Assembly (NCBI RefSeq): GCF_027887165.1
Contig: NC_077231.1
Span: 187,678,834 to 187,742,833, forward strand
DNA: 64,000 nt
Reading direction: 5' to 3'
Source of the DNA: Monodelphis domestica
Taxonomy: Eukaryota > Chordata > Mammalia > Didelphimorphia > Didelphidae
Each line of letters opens with the position of its first letter. The first letter of the stretch is position 1. Under the pieces are notes generated by a model. That model was not told the origin of the DNA. It saw only the letters and a program-made list of their open reading frames with translations, and made no database searches. The translations under genes and the position numbers were made by a program. This document shows, piece after piece, positions 1-60,244 of this stretch.

Positions 1-701
1 TTTTACAGAAGAGGAAACTAAGGCTGAGTGTGTTTCACAAGCTTGAATTGTTAGTGAGCAACAAAGAAAAAATTTATGCTGAAATCTTTCTGACTGTAAG
101 TCTAGCATGCTATCCACTGAACCACTCAGTTACCATGACAATGCAAACCTATTAGTTTTGATTTTTAAAAGATGTGGGATTTCATCAGTGTGGATACTCT
201 CTTCCTTGACATAGATTACAAAACTCTACATTCTTAAGTAGACAGTTTCTATTGTTTCCCTTTCTTCCCTCCTTTGCCCAATTAACACATGGTAGTCAAC
301 ATTCCACTGATCATTTCTAGTGATCATTTTCATAAATTTAGCTAGACTGGTCCTTGAATGACATAACCTTCAGAGCATAACAGGATCTATACTCAAAATC
401 ATCAAATTTTCATAGGATATAATAAAATTTGTATTCTATTGTCATAACCTCCATGAACCCAGAATGACACTATGCCATTATGAGGCTTTGGGGATGTACA
501 TTAATTAAGGTAAATTATTATCTTATAGGATTTTTCAGCTTTAAGTAGTCAATTAAACAATAAATTTGATTGTTTCTCTAGGCTAGACTACTTTTTCAGT
601 TAGGTAGCCAATTGTCAAAATGGTTTCTCATTGAAAGTAGACTTTGGGGTATAAAGGATTTAAGAATTTAATGAGTTGTCTTATTCTAGCCAAATATTTA
701 A

Positions 702-702
<1 letters not shown>
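1..702. other. AT-rich unassigned sequence
   Basis: No gene, RNA or confidently named repeat is visible here. The sequence is AT-rich and ends at the TA microsatellite. Short open frames are chance-sized. Confidence 0.5.

Positions 703-736
<34 letters not shown>
703..736. repeat. (TA)n microsatellite
   Basis: An uninterrupted TA dinucleotide run of about 17 units is read directly from the sequence. Confidence 0.95.
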
Positions 737-740
<4 letters not shown>

Positions 741-1173
741 CAAGCTGCCTAACTCTAACCCACAACAATTAACAATTAACATTTTTATATTAATATCTTT
801 AGAGTTTTTGAAACATGAATATATCTTTTGATAACTATTTCTGTCATCTTCTAAACTCCTGAAATCCTAGGCTTCTATTTAACTTTGTAAAGAAAACAAT
901 TCAGATAGTTTTCATTCTGGTTTTGTTTCATGTGCTCAAGGGACGAATGTGGGATTTACTATACCAAAGAGAACCCTCTGGGGTTACTTTCTTTCTTTCT
1001 ACCTTTAGCAATTGGTGGGATAATTAGATGGGCTAGCATATTAAGTAAATTCACCTTACTTCTAAACATTTGTCATATTCCAATACCCTGCCACAATACA
1101 ATTGTTTTGTTAATTGGAATGAAAGAAAAATATATTTTAGTATATTGCATTTCTTTTAAAAGTAAATGGATAA

Positions 1174-1354
1174 GGGCTGTTAGGCATCTCAGTAGATAGC
1201 CAGGCCTGAAGATGAGAGGTCCTGGGTTCAAAATCTGGCTTCAGATATTTCTTAGCTATGTGAACCTAGACAAGTCACTTATCCCCATTTGCCTAGACCT
1301 TACTACCATTCAGCCTTGGAACCAATATTCAGTATCAATTGTAAAAAAAAAAAA
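1174..1354 (+). repeat. Marsupial tRNA-derived SINE
   Basis: A tRNA-like head with a B-box-like 'gggttcaaaatc' is followed by a tail 'gccttggaaccaatattc' and a run of 12 A. Other copies in this window (3' tail near 4,045, and near 13,878, 31,000 and 52,776) share this tail, which is typical of marsupial SINEs. It is a non-autonomous element probably mobilised by a LINE. The flanking 'aaaagtaa' strings may be remnants of a target-site duplication. Confidence 0.85.
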
Positions 1355-1440
1355 GTAAGGATTTTTAAAAAATAATAGGTATTTCTCTGTTCTGAAGGTA
1401 ACAGATACTTATGTTACTAAAATGGGGGTATACTCTAGAG

Positions 1441-1660
1441 CAGTGGTTTTGAAACCCAAATAGAAATGGGGACCACGAAACAGTATGTAAGGATCCTTGC
1501 AGTCAACATATTGACTTTGAAAACCATATACATACAAATACATATACATAATCTATATCTATAAACTATTATATTTTTATTTATTTTGTTAAACATTTCC
1601 CAATTATATTTTAATCTGAATTATTATTATAGCCTGGAGACCTTGAGTTTGACATCTCTG
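1441..1660. mobile_element. Small hAT-type DNA transposon (MITE), 220 bp
   Basis: The ends are inverted: the left begins 'cagtggttttgaaac' and the right, read in reverse complement, begins 'cagagatgtcaaac'. The 8 bases outside are ctctagag on the left and ttctagaa on the right, sharing the core tctaga. An 8-bp duplication of that type is the hAT hallmark. There is no transposase, so it is non-autonomous. The family name is not assigned. Confidence 0.75.
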
Positions 1661-1714
1661 TTCTAGAAATACCTATATCAGATATCTTGGTATAATGAAA
1701 AGGAGACTTTAGTT

Positions 1715-1900
1715 TGAGTTAAGGAATTTGGCTTTGAAACTTGCCTAGAGTGCTTCTTAGAAAGGAAACCATGAGAAAGTCACTTGAAATTTCAGAGCCA
1801 TATTTTCTTATCTAAAATATCAGGATAGTAATACTTGCAATGCCTATCCCATTTATTTGTGAGAAAAAATCAGAAACCTTAAAGCTCTACAGGAATGATT
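1715..1900 (+). repeat. MIR-like (CORE-SINE) copy
   Basis: The order of blocks follows MIR: 'gagttaaggaatttggctt', then 'gagaaagtcacttgaa', then 'ttttcttatctaaaatatcaggatagtaat'. It is strongly diverged, as expected for an old copy. Confidence 0.65.
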
Positions 1901-4040
1901 TGTTATTATTCAGCCCAGTTAATATGATATTATGTGAATGATGACTTTTCTTAATTGGTATGAATTCTTAAGTAAAATTAAATTAAATTGGATGCTAAAG
2001 GACAAAAGTATTATAAAGCTTTCAAATTAAAAGGTGTTTTGTTTTTACCAGGTTGCTCAATTTTAAAATATTCGCTAAAATAAGAAATGCAGAAATGTGA
2101 TGAAAACATGATGTACTTTCTGTCAAAACAAGAAAATCACTTTGTGAAAATGATGGGAAATAAAGGCTAACAGGCATCTTTTCAGGGACTAGTAATAACA
2201 CAAAGATAACACTAACATATTTGGATGCCAAGATGAAAGGAAATGGCCCATTGAAAGGGCAATACATTATGTTCTATCCTACAGCTGCAGTTATAATGAG
2301 CAGACTCCTTAGTCATTTGCACTCTGAAAGAGTACTTGTGGCTGCTTTTTTGACTTATACACTAAGGAGATCTGGACCTAGTCAGTACTTGGATAATGGA
2401 CTGCTGCTGATGATAACAATGAGGAAAATGACTTGAACATACAAATGTTTATCCTTTGAGAGATGAAAACACATTTTAGCATCTGATCAAATGAATCTTT
2501 ACCCTTTGGCTATAAATTTACCCAGATTGGGCAGGGGGAAAGGGAAATAAGACATGGTGGCTGGGAAGGAATTCACATTTTGTTATTTTTTTCTTCAGCT
2601 TTCTCCTTATAGATGCTAGAAAATGTCTTGCAATTTAGTAATATTTTTTGGGATTGTATAGATTTGGAAGGATCTCCAATATATAGCAAACAGAACTGAG
2701 GTAAGGATACATTATGAAAATAATCCAACTATAATCCAGCTGTGGTCCAGAAGCTAAAGAGTTTATAATTTCAACCAACTTGATAATAAAGAATGGATTT
2801 ATAGAAACAATGTCAGTGAACAGAATCAGATATATGTGCACTAGAATCTTTGTGGGTCACAATAGTTTTGTGCAACTCATTACCATTTAAATGTTGGAAA
2901 AGAAATGTGAATGGTTCTCAAATGACTCCTTAATTTATATTCTTTGATCCATAAAGACTCAGTGTATTTCGTGGATCATATCTTTGACAAATCTAATGGC
3001 TCAGTACATTTATTCAAAAATGTTTAGGTATAAAACCAACTGGTACATCTTTATGCTTTTAATAGTTTGAGTCAAATATATCTTTAATGACAGTTTAAAT
3101 TAAAAGCTCATGGATTAAAATGCCACTTGTCTTTCAATCCTTAATTTAATATTGCATTCCTCAATACACATTTCACTTTGGTTGAGTTCACAAAGATGAT
3201 TTATTTGAACACCTGATCCATCAGCTAAGGCTATCAATAAACTCGGAGCCTTTGATGAAAGGTAGATTGAGTCCTTGTCAAAAGGCCACTTCAGTCTGTT
3301 AAACAATGGATACATTTAGTACTCATTCAACATCAGATGTCACAAAAATTGTTCTATTATTTTTTGTGACTGCCAGCAACTCATTTGCCTTCCTGCTTCA
3401 AATTAAAGATTCCAATAGTTCCTAAGGAACTGAAAAAATTCTTCTTTTAAAAATTAAGGCATAGAAAAGCCAGTAAAGTTAAAAAACTAAAGCAAAGACA
3501 TCTTTTCTCTTATACGATAGATATTTTGAAATTAAAAAGGTAATTTTATCTAATTTTCCACAAATCAAAATGTATGTAATTTCACGTTCATAATGCTAAG
3601 AATCTTTTTTTTTCTTTTCTTGTTAAGTATTCACTTGGTGAATATTTGGAACAACACTGAAAAGAAGCTTAAAACTCACTTATATTTGTGAACTTGGGGG
3701 ATGTGCCAACAAATTTTACTCTGATATATCTTCTGTCCCATTGAGCAACCATTTAGAGATATATTGACACTAATGATTTAGTTTTGCATCCTAAAAATGA
3801 AAAAATAGTGAAGCTTAAATGAAATTAATTGAAAGTTACAAATACTTTCTATAAAAAGCTAGCAATAAATACAGTGGTAAGCCAACAGCTAAAAACATGT
3901 AATAGCTTCCATTGCATGAATCATAGGAGGCAGTTTGATCCCTTTACTTTGAGATACACAACAATCTCAGCTTATGTATTGGGATAACATATATATGAGA
4001 GTAAATCAGACTTGTAGCAGCATGCTGATATCAGGACTTT
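1901..4040. other. Unassigned, apparently unique sequence
   Basis: I see no gene or recognisable repeat in this 2.1 kb. Several open frames of 60-80 codons occur on both strands but none shows a domain, codon bias or conserved motif. Confidence 0.45.
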
Positions 4041-4044
4041 ATAT

Positions 4045-4135
4045 TAACCTGTATTGCCCAGCCCTCAATTTTCTTCTATCTTGGAATTAATACACAGTAT
4101 TGATTCTAATATGGAAGGTAAGGATTGTTTTAAAA
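4045..4135 (+). repeat. Marsupial SINE, 3' tail fragment
   Basis: Only the 3' part is recognisable: 'cttggaattaatacacag', then 'attgattctaatatggaagg', then 'taaggattgttttaaaag'. This matches the tail of the SINEs at 1,174 and 52,776. Confidence 0.65.
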
Positions 4136-4596
4136 GAATAAGTATACTCACTGAGGAAACATAGATTGCCCCAACAGGTATTCATGAAAATAATTGTGAA
4201 TAGATAAGAGGAACATTAAGAATACACCAAAAGGTAGTAGAGTTCTAAATGGAGGAGATTTAGTTTGGGAGCTGACTTAAGTCTCTTGAAAAACTTACTA
4301 TAGACCTTTGACTTTTGTTTTTTGCAATATCTCATTACATATTCTCTGATTCCTCAAAGTATTAAATCCTAAATATTGCATAATCCTGATTGTGCTTCCT
4401 TGATCTTTGATTTTTTAAAATTTATGGCTGCTTTTTTGGAAGTTGTGAAGTTTGGCAGTCACCTTCCTGGGAATTTTCATTTTGATGTTTCTTTCAGAGG
4501 GTGATCAATGGATTCATTTAATTTTCACATTGTGTCTTATTTTAATATATCTGGACAGTTTTCTAAATAAAATCCCAAGACAAAATACATATTGCT

Positions 4597-20014: not shown

Positions 20015-24514
<4,500 letters not shown>

Positions 24515-30449: not shown

Positions 30450-30999
30450 CTCTTGGCAATCAATATTTCCTGAAGGGATAATCTTAGTATAGGAAACAAG
30501 AAGATATTATAATACACCCAAAATAACAATTTATTTTATTTTATAGCTGCTAGTAGGTATTTGCATATTTACTTAAGTTATGGACTATTAGTGATAGAGA
30601 GGAGTGGGATAAAGCAGTGATCTCAGAGTTTGAAATACTTTAGTACATGGTGAGGGTGTGACTCCAGGAAAGAATCTCAAATCCTTTGTCTTTCAAGTAT
30701 ATATTTAAGTCTATAAGTTGCAGAAAAGTTTCTTGTCTATCAGTAGTTGGCGTTTCTTCACTGAGTATTTCTTATAACATTAAACTTTAGGTATCCTCCC
30801 ATGTAATCCATTTAAAAATTCAATGGTACTTGAATATAAGGTAATGGGGTTGTGAGACTAAGATATGTCTTAGTCATTACTGTTGTAATTATTAAGCCTA
30901 CACACTGGACAATAGTATCAAGAAGAATATTTTACACAGAATACATTTACTAAATATTTCTTGCTTTTATAAAACACCATAAAACTATTAAAAATCAGC

Positions 31000-31210
31000 T
31001 ACCACCTGGAACAACTTGATGGCTCAGTGGATTGGGAGCCAAGCCTAGTGATGGGAGGTCCTGGTTCAAATCTGACCTTAGATACTTTCAAGCTCTGTGA
31101 TCCTGGGCAACTCACATAACCACCATTGCCTAGTCCTTATTGCTTTTCTGCCTTAGAACAAATATACAATATCATTTCTAAGAAGGAAGTTAAGGGTTTA
31201 AAAAAAATGA
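31000..31210 (+). repeat. Marsupial tRNA-derived SINE
   Basis: 'ttgatggctcagtggattg' is the tRNA-like A-box region and 'ctggttcaaatctgac' the B box. The tail is 'cttagaacaaatatacaata' and 'aaggaagttaagggttt' with an A run. It lies just outside the WWTR1 retrocopy. Confidence 0.88.
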
Positions 31211-31268
31211 TCAGTCACCACCTCGAGCTTTTGAGGAATTAATTCACTCATTCAACAAACTTTTTATT

Positions 31269-34200
31269 TTTATTTTTTGAAATTTTAATTATATGTATTT
31301 TTCTTGTACAGGATCAGAGAAAAAACCAATGTCAAACTTTGGCTACAGCAGTTTGATCTGATTGGTTTGACTACATACATCTTTGTATGCATAGCCATCT
31401 AAATTAAAAATAAACACTCACACGTATGTCATATAACAAAAATGTAAAAGTAAATTAAAAAATTAAGACACTAGAACATAGATGGATGTAGTGTATTAGG
31501 AAACATTCTTTGTCAATCACCCATTTTCCCCATTTAAAATAATGTATGATGTCTTTTACAAATAGAATTGTATCATTGAGTCTTGCTTCTTCTGAGAACT
31601 ACATTCTAAGAGTGTTACCAGAATAAAGGTTACAATACACAACTTCTTTCTTGTTCCATATCACCAGCACTGATGTGGAACTGTCCTACTCAGCAAGGGT
31701 CAACTGTGTGCCTGGGCACTTTGGCATATTCACTCTGTATGTATCCTATACACCCAAGAAAACTGTTTAAAAAAAAAAAAGAAATGTCACTTCACATTCT
31801 TAAATAATGCAGTGAAATACTGTCTAAGAATTACTGCATAAAAGTTTTGTCCAAGAATTCAATTCAAATTCCTTTTAGATCAGAAAAAAAGGATAGGAAG
31901 GAATACACTGTAAACGGTATCTTTCTCATGCCAAAATTGGTTCTTTTTTCCTTTATCTCATCATTGTCATTTCAAACTAAAAAGAATCCTAGCAATTGCT
32001 TTATAATCTAATAAAACTTGTAAGATAGCACCTTCTATTTAATTTGGTAGGAGGTTCATGATTGTAATCAATTGAAACTATGTATTTTAGAGCTTTATTG
32101 CCTTCAAATTTTCATATTTTAGTATCTATCTATCTTCCTTTTTCTCTCTCCCTTTCTTCCTTCCTTCTTTCCTTCTTTCCTTCTTTCCTCCCACACTCCC
32201 TTCCTTTCTTCATTTCTTTCTTTCATTCTTTCTTTCTTCATTTCTTAGTTTCTTTTTTAAACAATGTTTTACATGCCACTAAAAAAAATCTACTTGGCTT
32301 TCTTTAGGTGATAACACCGTATTGATCAATGCTTTGCTTTACCCTGGGAGAAAGTGTAGTTTCCTTAATAATAAATGCTTAACTAGTTTTTCTAACAAAA
32401 AAAGAAAAAAATTACCTCATATTTATTAATTTGAATTATAGCATACTAGAAAATTCATTTCTGAAAATAGACTCTATAAATCCCTAAAAATTTTTAAGGC
32501 AATGAGGGATTGCTATTTCAGATTTAATTTGATAACCTGAAAACAAGTCTTAAAGAAAAAAAAAACTTTAAAAAAATATAGTAACACTACTTATCATTGT
32601 TAGGTCCCTTGTTTGTTCAAAATGATTGTTCCATTCCTTTTGCAACAGCAAAAGGGGGAGGGGAATCAGTGCTCCCTTCATTTTTTTGGAGAAACATTTC
32701 CGTCCAGCTGCACTTCCTCATCCCAACACCCTCATTGGGTGTAGGAAGGAAAAAGTGGGACAGAGAAAATAATAAAGAAATGGAACGGGGTCTGGGGAAA
32801 GGTAAAGGAGAATATAAAGGGAGGAGGGGGCAGAAAATATTATCAGACAAACATACGGGGGAGGAAGGGAGCAAAAAAAAAATCCTCTACTATTTAGGGA
32901 AAAAAGTTTCATTGTTTTGGAAGTAAGAGTAGTTTTATCCTCAACCTTCTCATTCCTTCTTTTGTCTTTCTGTTCAATGTAAAGTGCCCCAAAGGAGTTT
33001 GTTTGCTTGTTTTAAAAACAAAATAGAAAAAACATTTGGAGTAAAAGTAATCATAGAAAAGAGTTTTTATAAAACTCTCTTGATGCCTTCTATTTGGGCA
33101 CCCAAGCTCTTTTCACTTCTGGGGCATGATTACATGTCTATCCATATAGATTTCTTAGCTTTCCATGTTTCCATAATATTGCTACTTGAACTCTGACTTT
33201 TTCACCTGCTTTCTTACCAACAAGAAAAAAGATATTCTATACTTCTTGTGTCTTCTAATACAAAAGAAAGAATCTGAATTAATAGACCCTCAACAAATAA
33301 ACACTTAATTGAGTGATCAACCTCCTGTGTTTGCTAGGACATAGGTTATAAATAATGACAATAAAATAAATAGTTTATAAATTCATAGGTTATAAATAAT
33401 GACAATTAAAAATATTAAAACATTTGAGGGCTTCAGTGGCACACTAGGGGAGCTGAATGCTAGTTATACTTTATGCTCTCTCAGTCCTAAACATCTCAAA
33501 AAGAAATTTCTCTTGATTACATGAGAGGTATTAAGTATATATGATATCAAGCCTTTTATACCAATAGGAGCAAGCGGAAAAGTTTGTATAATAGAATTAG
33601 CAGACAGGGAATAGTCTGACTGAATTCAGAAACATTTGCCTCCATCATATACCCTCCCCATAAAGCAGGCATGTGTTTACAGGCCATTCAGTGATCGGTC
33701 ATTCACGATTATAGTTTCATCTGTCTGATTCAATTCCTCATTGCCTCTGCAACAAGACCAACAAGGCTTACAAAAAAGGCAACTGGGTATTCTATTGTCA
33801 AGCTGTAAATTGTGCCATACTTTCCCACCTTGATATATTTTAGGATTATTTTCTAAGAATAAAAAAAAAAACAGTTGCCATAGATATATAAAAAAATATG
33901 TTGCTAATTATAATCAGTTACAAAATTACAGTGAGTGCTTAATAAAAATAAGCATCATAATCTAAGTTGCATTTTATTATGATTGCATGTCTTTCCATTC
34001 TGCTGGCTTATTTTTCTAGTTGTGGTGGTGCTTAGTACAGATATGGTCTCTTTTACAGATTCTTTAGTATAAAGTGGTTACTAGACAAATCTGCTACTTT
34101 TTAAATTAGAATTGTTCATTTTCTGGAACCCATACAATAATACACTGGGGAATAAACAATAACAATATTGTCTGTGCCTCTGAAAATATAGAATAATTAT

Positions 34201-34793
34201 TATTATTATCATAGTCAGCATGGATTCAAAACTACTCAGCATTCCATACAGTACTATTTGACTAACAATACAATGATTTTTTTAAAGCTCAAGTTAAATA
34301 GAGTTTTATTTTTTTATTTTTGTAAAGCACTTGACACTACTGTCATAAATATAGCTACTGACCTATACTTTTGTGTCTAATCTGGTATAACGATGCTGGC
34401 TGAAGCTGTCACATCAAACATAAAGCCTTTTCTTTTTTTTTTCTTTTTTATCAGCTTATATGAACACCCACACGCATATTCAAGGGTCAATGAAAAGGGA
34501 AAAGAGAGTATACAATTTCTGCAGGTTCTCTCCCTGAAATCTGGGCTACAGACATGCCTCAGCCAGGATGCTGTAGCATTCAGATACAATTTAAAAAGAA
34601 TGTGAAAATATACACTTTTATATTTATATTTTAAACTTAAGTTATTGTCAGTCAGATTCAGACAACAATTTCAATTGACCATGTGGATGTAAAGATTGTT
34701 AGAAATCTCAAGTTCTTTCTGGACTCCACCTATTTTCCAAAGAAGAGAAGGTGAGAGAGGATGTAGGGGGCAGGTCAAAGCCAAGAGTGCAGA
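31269..34793 (-). pseudogene. WWTR1: 3' UTR part of the WWTR1 (TAZ) retrocopy
   Basis: This 3.5 kb follows the retrocopied WWTR1 coding sequence without a break I can detect. On the minus strand it ends in an ATTAAA signal, a short spacer and the A-rich tail aaaaaataaaaataaaaa. The tail abuts one copy of a 15-bp duplication whose partner sits at the other end of the retrocopy. I infer that the whole block was reverse-transcribed from WWTR1 mRNA. The length fits the long 3' UTR of mammalian WWTR1. It contains a TTCC-rich stretch (32,130-32,245), a purine-rich block (32,640-32,880) and a local duplication near 33,350. The UTR identity rests on the TSD and continuity, not on a database match. 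Confidence 0.75.
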
Positions 34794-34796
34794 TGA

Positions 34797-35595
34797 CAGC
34801 CAGGTCAGAAAGGGCTCGCTTTTGGTAAGGATAGACTCCACATCATTGAAGATTAGAATCAGGTCCTCTGACTCCAGAGTCTGTTGCAGGAAGATAGTCA
34901 AGGAAGTCAGGGAAATGGATCTGCTGGACATTTAGGTTCATCGGTGTATTGGCTACAGTTTCCCCTGTGTCCATCTCATCAATGTTGCCAAGGAAATCTT
35001 CAGGAGTCGTTGGTATGCTGTAGCATCCTAAGACAAGGCCACTGTCAGTGCTCTGTTCCCTAGAATGGTTTGGCCCGCCATTGAGAAATGGATCCGAACT
35101 ATTATTTGTTATTGGTCTTAGTTCCTGGGCTATGGCAGGTGTATTCCCAGCAGGTTGAACAGAGGCCATTTTCTCTGATTCCATGGGAAGTTGTTGACAC
35201 AAAATAGCTTCCTGTCTAATGAGTTCCTACTGGCACATTTGGATTCTTTCTCTTTCCATTTGGATCTGCTGAAGCCATAGTTTCTGTTGAGGTTACTGCT
35301 GGGTGGTCAAGGCTTTGGGCAAACTCATCAAGTCATCCTGTGGGTTTGGGGCTGGATGGTTTTGCTGGGACAGAGTGATATTGGATGTTATCTGCTGCTG
35401 GTGCTGGTGGTTCATCACAAGGTTGGGCTGAGACATCACCATGGAATCTAGGACATTGGGGTTGAAGTTGCCGAGGGATGGAAAGCCATGTGGTTCAAAG
35501 TTTGAGTTATTGTCTTCTGAGGGTCTTGCCATGAGGTGATTTTTTCTATGTGATTGAGAAAATACCGCTGGCCAGTGGCAGTGAAAGTCATCTCA
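34797..35595 (-). pseudogene. WWTR1: WWTR1 (TAZ) processed pseudogene, coding part, 5'-truncated
   Basis: WWTR1/TAZ is the Hippo-pathway co-activator that binds TEAD factors in the nucleus. The copy begins inside the WW domain ('MTFTATGQRYFLNHIEKITS', then 'WQDP') and runs without introns through 'SQPNLVMNHQHQQQ', 'RPITNNSSDPFLNGGPNHSR', 'EQSTDSGLVLGCYSIPTTPE' and 'DVESILTKSEPFLTWL', the C-terminal PDZ-binding motif. About 266 codons remain, close to the corresponding human span. Defects are a frameshift at about 35,445, an in-frame TAA at 35,293-35,295, an in-frame TAG at 35,227-35,229 and a frameshift or small deletion at about 34,885. TCA stands at 34,794-34,796 where the stop should follow FLTWL. 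The TEAD-binding N-terminus is absent, so no TAZ function is expected. Confidence 0.96.
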
Positions 35596-35610
35596 AACAA
35601 ACTTTTTATT
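35596..35610. repeat. Target-site duplication of the WWTR1 retrocopy
   Basis: aacaaactttttatt at 35,596-35,610 is identical to 31,254-31,268. The two copies flank the retrocopy, with the A-rich tail adjoining the left copy. This is the signature of L1-driven retroposition. Confidence 0.92.
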
Positions 35611-35867
35611 AGGTGTCTCTCATATACAAACCACTATTCTAGTTGCAAAGGATAGAGATAAAAAAAAAGTCCCTGCCCTCAAAATGCTTTCCTTTCACTG
35701 GAGGAATAAATCAGTTAATTAAAAACATACAAAGACTTTTGTTCATGGAGCAGGTATGTGGAGTAAATAAAAGAATTTATTAAGTTCTCCCTCAAACTTT
35801 AAAAAAAAGCCTCAAATAAAATTCTGGAGTAGCAGAGCCATCAAAATGATAGAGTAATATATCCTAC

Positions 35868-36880
35868 TGTTAGAGGTAAAATTAGGGTTGTTGACTGAAT
35901 ATATTATTTTAGGGGTCGCCAGGGATTTAAATTCAATCCCAATAAAATACTAAAGTAAGTTTGGGGTTTTTATGGTGGTTTAATTACAATAGTAGGAAGA
36001 GATTAAGAAGAAGAGAGAGAGGAAAGCTTATAAGATTTCTTGGGCCTAGCCTAAGCTAAAGGAAATTCAGAGACCTCAGTCACGAGGACACCTCCATGAT
36101 CAGGGTTCTCCTTGGAGGATAGTGCTTTAGGAGGTAAAGGAAAGGAGGAATCAGCAGCCACTCACTAAGGTCGCTCAGGGAAGATGCCTCACGAAAACCA
36201 CACTACAGAGTTTCTCCCATTAACCTCACTGCCAAGTCACAAACACCAAACCTCCACCAGGAGCTCCCAAGCTCCACAAGCCTCATCGCTGAGTGAGCCC
36301 AATGTCTCCAAGAGAGAAAGCCCAAAGTCTCCAAGAGAGAGTGAGAGTGGAAGTGATGCAAAATAAATAGGCAAGTCTTTACATCACTTCCTGAGTATCA
36401 CATGTACCAATGGTAGCTTAAGCTTGACTTAGGACAGCCCAGTGGGTATGCCAGTTGTTTCTGATTTGTCACTTGCTAGCATGTATTGGTCATAGGACAT
36501 CTTCCTCACAAGTAATCTGTAAGTGGGGTTGTATACATTCCTGGTTGCTAGAATTCTAAAGATTAAAAAGGATCGAGTAAAACTAAAATCCACACTTCCT
36601 TGCCTAGACAACTTAGAATCTTGGAAAGTGAGAACTATGCCACAGGGAAGAAGGCCAGTCTGGAATCCACATGGATGAAATGGAAGAGTGAGATGATATA
36701 GTAATGACAAAACAGCAGCAATTCTGGGAGCTCCCAAGCCAGAGATGGTAAGGGGATCTGTTGACTGGTCAAAAAGAGATTGTAGGATACTCCAATGCTG
36801 GTGGTGAACACAGTACCAGTCACTGTTTGGAAACTTCATTATCTATACCTACTTCTGGGGCATAATTTAAGGGTTAAAAG
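35868..36880 (-). mobile_element. ERV LTR, family B-like
   Basis: The plus strand starts TGTTAGAGG at 35,868 and contains 'ttaggggtcgccagggattt' and 'gtttttatggtggtttaatt'. These are the reverse complement of the 'ccctggcgacc' and 'attaaatttctctataaaac' blocks of the LTR at 53,203. A frame at 36,184-36,366 is an antisense by-product of its GC-richer middle. The right limit is uncertain because the U3 end has diverged, and no TSD was found. Confidence 0.6.
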
Positions 36881-46970: not shown

Positions 46971-47724
46971 GAGAGAGAAGGGAATAGGGCTTAAATACCC
47001 CCTCTGTTTAGGCTGGGCCAAAAGGCCCAAGCCTTTAGATAGCTGAGGCAAAGAAAAGAGATCAGTCCCTATCACTCATGTGACCAAAATGGAGAAACAG
47101 TCTCAGGGGCCTCCACCTCCAGCCTCTTTCAGAGCAAGCCCTCCTTTCAGAGCAACCTCCTCAGAGCAAGACCTCCTCGAAACCCCAGTCCTCAGACCCC
47201 GCTATCTTTAAGGAAACCACCTAAGTTCCCTCCCCTCAGTTCTCACATCTACCAATCACTGTCCATGTCTTCCCTGTGCCAATGGTGGCTCTAGCTTAAC
47301 CCAGGACCACCCAGAGGTCTGCCCCCTTGCACATGTCTGTTGAAGGTCATATTGTCAAATAATTAAATCTTGATCCTTGCTGCAGCCCTTCCTAAATCCC
47401 TTTACTCTGAGTAGGGTGGAGATTGTAGTTTCAAGACCTGGTTCTGTCATTCCAAGTATCTCTATTGTATCAATTCTAAAATCAATCATGACTCAAAGAA
47501 CTTCCTGTTCTATGCTTAAGCATAGGTCAAAGCCCTTTCCATTGTTTAGCAAAAGGTTTCTGTACTAAAATAGTCTTAGGTAGGGAGGAGAAGGATCCTC
47601 CCATGACTGGGGGTTTCACATTCCAATAGAGTTCCTACTATCAGTAGGAAACTCTTTCCAGTATGAGATTTCCCAATGGGGAAATTTCCAACATTCATAA
47701 GTCTAAGAAATTTTAAGGTTTACA
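46790..47724 (-). mobile_element. Solo LTR of ERV family B, 935 bp, gttc TSD
   Basis: The plus strand begins TGTGACAAGG and ends GGTTTACA. The 4-bp duplication gttc lies at 46,786-46,789 and 47,725-47,728, and the L1 continues on both sides. Read on the minus strand it is a close relative of the plus-strand LTR at 53,203: both begin TGTAAACCTTAAAATTTC and share 'acctatgcttaagcatag' and 'cagacatgtgcaagggggca'. A (GA)n run (46,935-46,978) lies in the 3' half. Confidence 0.9.
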
Positions 47725-53202: not shown

Positions 53203-54180
53203 TGTAAACCTTAAAATTTCTTAGACTTATGAATGTTGGAAATTTCACCATTGGAAAGTTTCATACTTGGAAAAAATTTCCTACTGATAGTAAGAACTCT
53301 ATTGGAATGTGAACCCCTTTGGCATGGGAGGATCCTTCTCCTCCCTACTTAAGACTACTTTAGGACAGAAACCTTTTGCTAAACAATGGAAAGGGCTTTG
53401 ACCTATGCTTAAGCATAGAACAGGAAGTTCTTTGAGACATGATTGATTTTAGAGTTGATACAATAGAGATACTTGGAATGACAGAACCAGGTCTTGGAAA
53501 ATACAATTTCCACCCTACTTAGAGTAACAGGATTTAGGAAGGGCTGCAGCAAAGGATCAAGATTTAATTATTTGAGAATATGACCTTCAACAGACATGTG
53601 CAAGGGGGCAGACCTCTGGGAGGTCCTGGGTTAAGCTAGAGCCACCATTGGCACGGGGAAGACATGGACAGTGATTGGTAGATGTTAGAACTGAGGGGAG
53701 GGAACTTAGATGGTTTCCTTAAAGATAGCGGGGTCTGAGGACTGGGGGGTCGAGGAGGTTTTGCTCTGAGCGAGGTGGCTCTGAAGGAGGACTGAGGAGG
53801 TTGCTCTGTGGGAGGACCAGGAGAGAAGGCTGACTCTGAAGGAGGAGAATTCTCTGGAAACATTTCTTGAAAGGAGGCTCTCTTGAAGGTGGAACCTGAG
53901 GTTGGCATGAGAAGCCTTACCTAGAGAGATCTTGGGTGAGTGATAAAACCAACTGACTGATTTATTCATTTTTATTCCTTTCTTAATTTCTCTCTTTTTC
54001 TATTGATTAATCAGTGTATTATAAATTAAATTTCTCTATAAAACCCAGATGGCTTGGGCACATTCATAAATTGGGAATATATTCCCTGGCGACCATCTTA
54101 TATTTATATAAAACCAAGACACAGTAGAAAACATATTTCAGCAGTCATAATTGTTATATATTTCCCTTGCTCCCAAAACA
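53203..54180 (+). mobile_element. ERV LTR, family B, plus strand
   Basis: It starts TGTAAACCTTAAAATTTC and is collinear with the minus-strand LTR at 46,790-47,724. The 3' part has 'aatttctctataaaacccag' and 'ttccctggcgaccatc'. The right limit is estimated by alignment with the 12,807 LTR, because no matching 4-bp duplication to ctat (53,199-53,202) was found. Minus-strand frames at 53,636-53,969 are antisense by-products. Confidence 0.78.
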
Positions 54181-56336: not shown

Positions 56337-56796
56337 TTCTAAAGTATTAATGAGAAGTAAGAATTAGGAAGGAAAAAGAGTCTCTGTAGAGGTAAGGATT
56401 ATTAGGAAAGCCCAATTTATTATAAATGAATGATATTAAAGGTTAGAAAAAAGTTGAGAGAGAAGAGAATTTCGTATTACTATTTCATCTGATTTGGCAA
56501 AAAGGAAGTATAAACAAAAAAATAAAATGAATACCAGTTGATGAATTATTGAGGTGATATATTTTTAAATGGCAAAACCTATACTAATATTTAGATATTT
56601 CCCTATCAATTTAATTATCAAAGAGCATTTATCACATTTAGCAAAATGGTAATTTTATTAATTTGGAGAAGCAATAGGCCTAGCATTTCAGGGGTTTCTT
56701 ATCCATATTTTTTTTAAATATTATTTTATTTGGTCGTTTTCATACATTATTCACTGGAAACAAAGATCATTTTCTTTTCCTCCCTTTCCCTTCCCT

Positions 56797-56814
56797 CCCC
56801 CCCCCCCCCCCCCC
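56797..56814 (-). repeat. 18-base C run (G18 on the L1 sense strand)
   Basis: The homopolymer lies in a polypyrimidine block (56,780-56,830) in the L1 3' UTR. On the sense strand it is a G-rich purine tract, a known feature of mammalian L1 3' UTRs and a potential quadruplex. Confidence 0.95.
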
Positions 56815-57083
56815 GCCTTTCCCTCTCCCATAGCTGAAGCATGATTCCACTGGTTGTCACATGTGTTCTTGACTCGAACCCATTTCCCTGTTGTTGGAGT
56901 TTGCATTATAGTGTTCATTTAAAGTCTCTCCTCAGTCTTATCTCCTCCAACCCTGTAGTCAAGCAGTTGCCTTTCAGCGGTGTTTCTACTCCCACAGTTT
57001 ATCCTCTGCCTGTGGGTAGTATTTTTTTTTAGATCCCTGCAGATTGTTCAGGGAAATTGCATTGATACTAATGGAGAAGTCCA

Positions 57084-60000
57084 TCACCTTCCATTGTACC
57101 ACAATGTATCAGTCTCTGTGTATAATGTTTTCCTGGTTCTGCTCCTTTCGCTCTGCATCACTTCCTGGAGGTTGTTCCAGTCTCCATGGAATTCCTCCAC
57201 TTTATTATTCCTTTTAGCACAATAGTATTCCATCACCAACATATACCACAGTTTGTTCAGCCATTCCCCAATTGAAGGGCATCCCCTCATTTTCCAATTT
57301 TTGGCCACCACAAAGAGCGCAGCTATGAATATTTTTGTACAAGTCTTTGTGTCCATTATCTCTTTGGGGTACAAGCCCAGCAGTGCTATGGCTGGATCAA
57401 AGGGCAGACAGTCTTTTATCGCCCTTTGGACATAGTTCCAAATTGCCCTCCAGAATGGTTGGATCAATTCACAACTCCACCAGCAATGAATTAATGTCCC
57501 CACTTTGCCACATCCCCTCCAGCATTCATTACTTTGCATAGCTGTCATGTTAGCCAACCTGCTAGGTGTGAGATGATACCTCAGAGTTGTTTTGATTTGC
57601 ATCTCTCTGATTATAAGAGATGTAGAGCACTTTTTCATGTGCTTATTAATAGTTTTGATTTCTTTGGCTGAGAATTGCCTGTTCATGTCCCTTGCCCATT
57701 TGTCAATTGGAGAATGGCTTGATTTTTTGTACAATTGATTTAGTTCTTTATAAATTTTAGTAATTAAACCTTTGTCAGAGGTTTTTATGAAGATTGTTTC
57801 CCAATTTGTTGCTACCCTTCTGATTTTGGTTACATTGGTTTTGTTTGTACAAAAGCTTTTTAATTTGATGTAATCCAGATTATTTATTTTGCATTTTGTA
57901 ACTCTTTCTAATTCTTGCTTGGTTTTGAAGTATTTCCCTTCCCAAAGATCTGACATGTATACTATTCTGTGTTCGCCTAATTTTCTTATAGTTTCCTTCT
58001 TTATGTTCAAGTCATTCATCCATTTTGAATTTATCTTGGTGTAGGGTGTGAGGTGTTGATCTAAGCCTAATCTTTCCCACACTGTCCTCCAATTTTCCCA
58101 ACAGTTTTTATGAAATAGTGGATTTTTGTCCCAAAAGCTGGGATCTTTGGGTTTGTCATATACTGTCTTGCTGAGGTTGCTTGCCCCCAGTCTATTCCAC
58201 TGATCCTCTTTTCTGTCTCTTAGCCAGTACCAAATTGTTTTGATGACCGCTGCTTTGTAATATAGTCTGAGATCTGGGACTGCAAGACCCCCTTCCTTTG
58301 TATTTTTTTTTCATTAATTCCCTGGATATCCTTGATCTTTTGTTCTTCCAAATGAACTTTGTTATGTTTTCTAAATCAGTAAAAAAATTTTTTGGAAGTT
58401 CCATGGGTATGGCACTAAATAGATAGATGAGTTTGGGTAGGATGGTCATTTTTATTATATTGGCTCGTCCTACCCATGAGCAGTTAATGTTCTTCCAATT
58501 GTTCAAGTCTAGTTTTAGTTGTGTGGAAAGTGTTTTGTAGTTGTGTTCATATAGTTCCTGTGTTTGTCTTGGGAGGTAGATTCCTAGGTATTTTATTTTG
58601 TCTTGGGTAATTTTGAATGGGATTTCTCTTTCTAGTTCTTGCTGCTGAGCTGTGTTGGAATTATATAGAAATGCTGATGACTTATGTGGGTTTATTTTGT
58701 ATCCTGCAACTTTGCTAAAGTTGTTGATTATTTCAATTAGCTTTTTGGTTGAGTCTCTAGGATTCTTTAAGTAGACCATCATGTCATCTGCAAAGAGCGA
58801 TAATTTGGTCTCCTCCTTGCCTATTTTGATGCCTTCAATTTCTTTTTCTTCTCTAATTGCTACTGCTAGTGTTTCTAATACAATGTCAAATAATAGAGGT
58901 GATAATGGGCATCCTTGTTTCACTCCTGATCTTAATGGGAATGGATTTAGTTTATCCCCATTGCAGATGATATTAGCTGATGGTTTTAGATATATACTGT
59001 TTATTATTTTTAGGAATGACCCTTCTATTCCTATGCTTTCTAGTGTTTTTAGTAGGAATGGGTGTTGTATTTTATCAAATGCTTTTTCTGCATCTATTGA
59101 GATAATCATGTGGTTCTTGTTGGTTTGCTTGTTGATGTGGTCAATTATGTGGATAGTTTTCCTAATGTTGAACCAGCCCTGCATCCCTGGTATAAATCCT
59201 ACTTGATCATGGTGGATGACCCTTCTAATCACTTGCCGGAGTCTTTTTGCTAGTATCCTATTTAAGATTTTTGCATCTATATTCATTAGGGAGATTGGTC
59301 TATAATTTTCTTTCTCTGTTTTTGGCCTGCCTGGTTTTGGAATCAGTACCATGCTTGTGTCATAAAAGGAGTTTGGTAGAACTCCCTCTTTGCTTATTAT
59401 GTCAAATAGTTTGTATAGTATTGGGATTAACTGTTCTCTGAATGTTTGATAGAATTCGCTGGTGAATCCATCAGGCCCTGGGGATTTTTTCTTAGGAAGT
59501 TCTGTGATGGCCTGTTGGATTTCTTTTTCTGATATGGGATTATTTAAGAAAACTATTTCTTCTTCTGTTAGTCTAGGCAATTTATATTTTTGTAAATATT
59601 CATCCATATCACCTAGGTTGGTATATTTATTGCCATATATTTAGTTGGGCAAAGTAGTTTTTAATGATTGCCTTAATTTCCTCTTCATTGGAGGTGAGAT
59701 CCCCCTTTTCATCCTTGATGCTATTAATTTGCCTTTCTTCTTTCCTTTTTTTAATTAAATTAACCAGTACTTTGTCTATTTTGTCTGTTTTTTCAAAGTA
59801 CCAGCTTCTAGTCTTGTTTATTAGCTCAATAGTTCTGTCACTTTCTATTTTATTAATTTCTCCCTTAATTTTTAGGATCTCTAGTATGGTTTTCTTCTGG
59901 GGGTTTTTAATTTGTTCATTCTCAAGTTTTTTGATTTGCATTTCCAATTCCTTGGTCTCTGTCCTCCCTAATTTGTTAATATGTGCACTCAGGGATATGA

Positions 60001-60228
60001 ATTTTCCTCTAAGTACTGCCTTGGCTGCATCCCATAAGGTTTGAAAGGATGTTTCGCCATTGTCATTTTCTTCAACAAAATTGTTAATTGTTTCTATGCT
60101 TTCTTCTCTAACTATCCGATTTTGGAGTATCATGTTATTTAATTTCCAATTAATTTTTGATTTGGGTCTCCATGTACCCTTGCCGATCAATATTTTAATT
60201 GCCTTGTGATCTGAAAAGGCTGCAGTTA
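57084..60228 (-). pseudogene. L1 ORF2 (endonuclease end, reverse transcriptase, CCHC), two frameshifts
   Basis: ORF2p is the L1 endonuclease/reverse transcriptase. The surviving frame starts at 'SDHKAIKI', the last endonuclease block. It continues through '[13 protein letters not shown]', '[13 protein letters not shown]', '[16 protein letters not shown]', 'AEKAFDKIQ', 'GCPSPLLF'-type '[11 protein letters not shown]', the catalytic '[11 protein letters not shown]' (codons at 58,783-58,794 encode FADD) and the cysteine-rich 'CWRGCG...HCWWSC' near 57,470-57,530. It ends 'TETDTLWYNGR' at 57,084. Two breaks are seen: a 4-base insertion near 59,640 and one extra G in a five-G run at 58,288-58,292. 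Otherwise about 1,045 codons are open, so the copy is comparatively young. Confidence 0.95.
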
Positions 60229-60244
60229 ATATTCTTATCCATAT

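Follow-up and report, generated by a model that had tools for sequence, protein, structure and literature searches.

Truncation at the 5' end is a mark of L1-mediated retroposition, which leaves target-site duplications of ∼7–20 bp and for which the L1 endonuclease nicks the first strand at TT/AAAA or at a closely similar site. Further marks, listed in the excerpted text of PMC7692494, are the absence of introns, a poly(A) tail and the duplication. Alu elements in 3'UTRs are described in an excerpt of PMC5199112 as an aid to pseudogene formation, and constraint on the pseudo-3'UTRs of expressed pseudogenes has been reported genome-wide (PMC6278865, in the excerpt at hand). L1-type processed pseudogenes that retain their 3'UTR in full are already a known kind. 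In the literature searched, no paper was found that names both WWTR1 and retrocopies; three name WWTR1 and processed pseudogenes, with a single mention of each combination.

The window analyzed here is a stretch of 64,000 nucleotides (G000:C5:187678834-187742833) from a genome of 3.59 Gb and carries an insert on its minus strand at 31254-35610. The insert is confirmed as an ordinary dead copy of WWTR1 (TAZ) mRNA with a complete 3' end, inserted long ago. We regard it, with a probability of roughly 97%, as a processed retropseudogene of WWTR1, driven by L1 and 5'-truncated in the WW domain. Its features, in the sense of the insert and in window coordinates, are as follows.

35596..35610, minus strand: 5' target-site duplicate (insert sense), 15 bp; exact 15-mer
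34797..35595, minus strand: WWTR1 coding remnant, beginning within the WW domain and ending at FLTWL; alignment to parent
34794..34796, minus strand: site of the parental stop codon (TAA), which reads TCA in the copy; alignment to parent
31279..34793, minus strand: copy of the WWTR1 3'UTR, end to end, ∼3.5 kb (3635 nt in the parent); alignment
34429..34450, minus strand: internal stretch, A-rich on the sense strand, as is the parental UTR; alignment
31294..31299, minus strand: poly(A) signal position, with AATACA in the copy against parental AATAAA; alignment
31284..31289, minus strand: ATTAAA, common to the parent, 5–6 nt from the cleavage site; sequence
31269..31278, minus strand: poly(A) tail remnant, A-rich with one T, where the parent reads GCTGGTGGCC; alignment
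31254..31268, minus strand: 3' target-site duplicate (insert sense), 15 bp; exact 15-mer

The parent gene was located by a genome search with the UTR and coding parts of the insert. It lies on contig C8 (C8:48754273-48829161), with five matched exons at 48754273, 48800668, 48818619, 48819706 and, running into the 3'UTR, from ∼48825337. All four introns between them have gt-ag borders, and the joined exons give an open frame through HIEKITTWQDPRK...FLTWL, followed by a stop. The search with the coding part returned seven matches, namely the window copy, one other copy (C1_296) and the five parent exons. We take parent and copy to be WWTR1, judging by the parent's glutamine-rich middle and C terminus, which resemble those of TAZ. 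A search of solved structures with the copy's N-terminal piece listed 24 matches, none of which names WWTR1 or TAZ; the top two were YAP1-dendrin entries.

Copy and parent align in one BLAST match that spans parental positions 2-4410 of 4410 at 87.2% identity when gaps are counted; without gaps, identity is 91.2% over 4230 sites (K2P 0.094). The alignment has 41 length differences, two of which are its ends (a 5' overhang of 42 nt and the 9-nt tail). The aligned parent transcript begins after the first 42–43 nt of the copy, which belong to a parental exon farther upstream. The four introns between the five parent exons are precisely missing from the copy, and the remnant crosses five parental exon-exon junctions without an intron, the first of these being read from its acceptor side only. 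Translated, the minus strand yields a YAP/TAZ-like protein, read alternately in two frames, that runs from EMTFTATGQRYFLNH to SEPFLTWL. The extent given in the earlier note, from the WW domain to FLTWL, agrees with a Pfam WW match at the start and ...SEPFLTWL at the end. The WW score of the N-terminal piece (24.1 bits, E 3.7e-05) falls below the Pfam cut-off of 26.9 because the domain is truncated.

A first correction to the earlier note concerns the normal stop after FLTWL, which has been lost, TAA having become TCA (34794-34796, minus). As a protein gene the copy is dead: its reading frame is disabled by this loss, by three premature stops and by deletions of 1 and 14 bp. Changed codons among the 251 comprise 40 with non-synonymous changes (stops included) and 18 with synonymous ones. 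By codon position, changes number 17/252 at the first, 19/251 at the second and 30/253 at the third, with parental and copy branches pooled. Such an excess at third positions is compatible with some constraint on the protein, and is accounted for equally well by changes on the parental branch, which is under constraint and where synonymous change would be expected.

Identity of the long noncoding part with the WWTR1 3'UTR had been inferred in the earlier note and is now observed, as 3.5 kb aligns with the parental 3'UTR from the stop codon to the cleavage site. The claim that the UTR is complete also stood, since the match spans all 3635 nt of the parental UTR and ends at the cleavage site, whose position was derived from the ends of the copies and AATAAA. 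The match ends at ...AATTAAAATTTCA; thereafter the parent reads GCTGGTGGCC and the copy an A-rich 9-mer followed by the duplicate. The A-rich tail noted earlier beside the left duplicate is thus present at the parental cleavage site, 9–10 nt long with one T, and its first A may be the last base of the parent. A second correction concerns the ATTAAA that had been put forward as the signal. It is indeed at 31284-31289 but is probably not the main one, because an AATAAA lies upstream of it in the parent. This AATAAA stands ∼16 nt before the cleavage point; at the aligned position (31294-31299) the copy has AATACA. The ATTAAA, common to parent and copy, is nearer the end (5–6 nt) than is usual. 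Elsewhere in the UTR, at 33340-33415, a 32-nt direct repeat (91%) adjoins a 46-nt deletion relative to the parent.

The 15-bp target-site duplication was found as described: the window contains two exact occurrences of the 15-mer and no more, one at 31254-31268, the other at 35596-35610. Two occurrences were seen in none of 100 shuffles. With up to two mismatches allowed, the 15-mer is found at two further places in the window, where 1.74 are expected by chance. Among 200,000 random pairs of 30-nt stretches lying 300–5000 bases apart in the window, a single pair had at least 15 common bases; the observed 15 came from 40-nt stretches. An equally good duplication to that of the window copy (15/15 bp) was given by none of 292 control pairs. 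No repeat hidden in the 3.5 kb came to light: with 30,900-36,100 masked, nothing else in the window matched the insert at E 1e-3.

By eye, and by likeness to a repeat consensus, the flanks (35611-35700 and 31240-31268) may be one old interspersed repeat split by the insert. A search with the joined flanks, for an empty site within the genome, yielded none and gave no confirmation of this reading: against the window and the extracted loci there were no junction-spanning matches, only weak ones (E 0.04–0.5), and in the window search at E 1e-3 the joined flanks matched only a stretch in the left flank. We take that stretch to be SINE-like. Farther off, 47137-47724 and 53203-53793 form an inverted pair of ∼590 bp, 93.8% identical and 5.5 kb apart, which looks like two copies of one repeat. 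A TCTT array of 45 copies (97% matches) occupies 23093-23272. The window contains no Rfam match at gathering scores and no tRNA.

We infer that the window copy is a product of L1. The L1 machinery would have used a spliced, polyadenylated WWTR1 mRNA as template at an A/T-rich site, reverse transcribing it from the poly(A) tail across the full 3'UTR and most of the remaining coding region. Synthesis would have halted inside the WW domain and the insert been sealed by the 15-bp duplication, after which it would have decayed without significant sign of selection. Some observations count against this explanation. On the sense strand the cut site reads CT/AATA, which resembles the L1 endonuclease consensus TT/AAAA only loosely; the tail remnant is short (9–10 nt, one T); third codon positions changed more than the others, as noted above; and 3 of the 7 family copies tested lack a duplication better than control. 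The window itself carries a reverse transcriptase frame at 58192-59607, minus strand (RVT_1, E 3.4e-48), in an element at 56708-60233, minus strand, that is presumably of L1 type. Another copy of WWTR1 (C1:182) is split by a 6.36-kb antisense element, which we likewise assume to be L1-type and which is bounded on either side by the 15-bp repeat AATTCATTACTTTTT. This element is 89.6% identical to that in the window over 3.5 kb, and the repeat flanking it indicates that elements of this kind make duplications of such length in this genome.

Besides the window copy and the parent, the genome search with the UTR part revealed at least seven further WWTR1 copies. The search gave 89 matches, 78 of them on a simple-repeat part of the query (2519-2703); the remaining 11 correspond to nine places (window copy, parent and seven copies). 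Seven is a lower bound, as 40 of 193 candidates were scored. Identities to the parent, gaps counted, are as follows.

C4:265.28 Mb: 97.3%
C1:182.02 Mb: 92–95%, in three pieces
C1:86.55 Mb: 90.0%
C1:492.32 Mb: 87.4%
C4:406.35 Mb: 84.9%
C2:60.80 Mb: 77.3%
C1:296.09 Mb: 72–78%, in three pieces

In six of the seven, the match stops no more than 11 nt from the parental 3' end at the cleavage site. The youngest, C4:265, ends 7 nt past the usual cleavage site, which suggests that cleavage there may vary; this insertion may be polymorphic or specific to the lineage. This copy lies at G000:C4:265275545-265276475, with its 5' end within a GGAA repeat of the UTR. The C1:182 copy (G000:C1:182022789-182031746) is without ∼1 kb of the UTR (parent 2998-4011). 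In six of the eight WWTR1 copies found, the match contains no coding sequence, and for these UTR-only matches retrocopy status is not readable from the absence of introns. C1:296 is intronless across its coding part and, by eye, seems to start near the same spot in the WW domain as the window copy. Its 3' end has been lost, cut off by other sequence, and for this reason it was left out of the duplication test and the tree. That test covered the window copy and six others. Good duplications were found in four of these seven, the window copy among them: C4:265 (13/13; 0 of 291 controls as good), C4:406 (14/14; 1 of 288) and C1:492 (11/12; 2 of 294). No duplication better than control was detected for C1:182 (28 of 299 controls as good), C2:60 (283 of 283) or C1:86 (60 of 294).

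Relationships were examined in a tree of eight rows, comprising the parent and seven copies (window copy included), over the last 711 parental positions. The tree is star-like as far as it is resolved, with a branch of 0.004 for the parent and 0.046 for the window copy. No inner branch of the five has full support, with four of them open, and the sole fork drawn joins the parent and C4:265 (83/94). To the extent that the data resolve, the star-like form indicates that WWTR1 was copied repeatedly and that the copies were not bred from one another. It is extremely unlikely that the source of the window copy was another WWTR1 retrocopy, whether by retroposition or by segmental duplication, rather than the gene. 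Seven other copies were at hand as possible sources, and identity of the window copy to C4_265 (91.4%, 898 sites) is slightly above that to the parent (91.2%, 4230 sites); C4_265, however, is confined to the 3' end, and its own identity to the parent is 98.0%. The other six copies are 76.7–91.0% identical to the window copy. The parent is the closest row (93%, 681 columns of the last 711 positions) and the nearest by path. No fork, among inner forks that are poorly supported, unites the window copy with another copy, and it is the longest of all, with a duplication of its own. There is a negligible probability that the insert combines two events, one giving a short coding retrocopy and the other a 3.5-kb unique or repeat sequence. 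Such a division could appeal to the A-rich sense-strand stretch near 34,430, where the earlier note had considered a second poly(A) boundary. There is no such boundary, because that stretch aligns to parental UTR that is A-rich too, and the match to the parent runs unbroken across it. The continuous match to the parent transcript refutes the two-event division, and one duplication encloses the whole insert; the single retroposition event proposed earlier is upheld.

If the pseudogene were transcribed, its long UTR might act as a microRNA sponge for WWTR1 (a competing endogenous RNA) and be kept by selection, a proposal that we consider very unlikely. The UTR is retained end to end, and the genome-wide constraint on pseudo-3'UTRs cited above, in the excerpted part of that source, lends the idea a precedent. 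Changes on the copy's own branch, with C1_296 as outgroup, also lie in the predicted direction (27/807 UTR sites and 32/677 coding sites), but the difference is not significant (Fisher p = 0.18) and the 807 UTR sites are limited to positions that can be aligned to an old copy. UTR rates were higher with other outgroups (105/1411, 43/646 and 25/657) and with any copy but C4_265 (156/2722 UTR sites changed); since the outgroups differ, these figures are not strictly comparable. The own-branch rate is low in the 3'-most part of the UTR (25/657). Overall identity to the parent is 91.05% for the coding part against 91.24% for the UTR. The comparison of own-branch rates thus revealed no significant constraint on the copy's UTR, and there is no positive evidence of function for the window copy. 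A dead, L1-driven retropseudogene remains our reading of the insert.

The number of copies raises the possibility that WWTR1 mRNA has been a recurrent L1 template in this lineage, with at least eight copies made over a long span, mostly of bare 3'UTR, perhaps through germline expression or a feature of the 3' end. We offer this tentatively and think it doubtful on balance. UTR-only copies of this sort would escape protein-based annotation; retrocopy counts that rely on protein alignment would miss the six of eight found here whose match has no coding sequence. The graded series of UTR copies is also a record of past states of the parental UTR and its cleavage site. The window copy provides a worked example of a UTR-dominated retrocopy delimited by its duplication, the parental cleavage site and the parent gene.

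The seven other WWTR1 copies share the parent of the window copy, and all are shorter or interrupted. Expressed pseudogenes with conserved pseudo-3'UTRs, such as BRAFP1 (PMC6278865, as excerpted), resemble the window copy in retaining the parental 3'UTR and differ from it in that the window copy shows no significant constraint. The closest likeness is to the processed pseudogenes that L1 makes in mammals, with which it has in common the lack of introns, a poly(A) remnant at the cleavage site, a target-site duplication, 5' truncation and decay of the frame. From these it differs only in degree: ∼80% of the window copy is 3'UTR, and its coding part starts in mid-domain.
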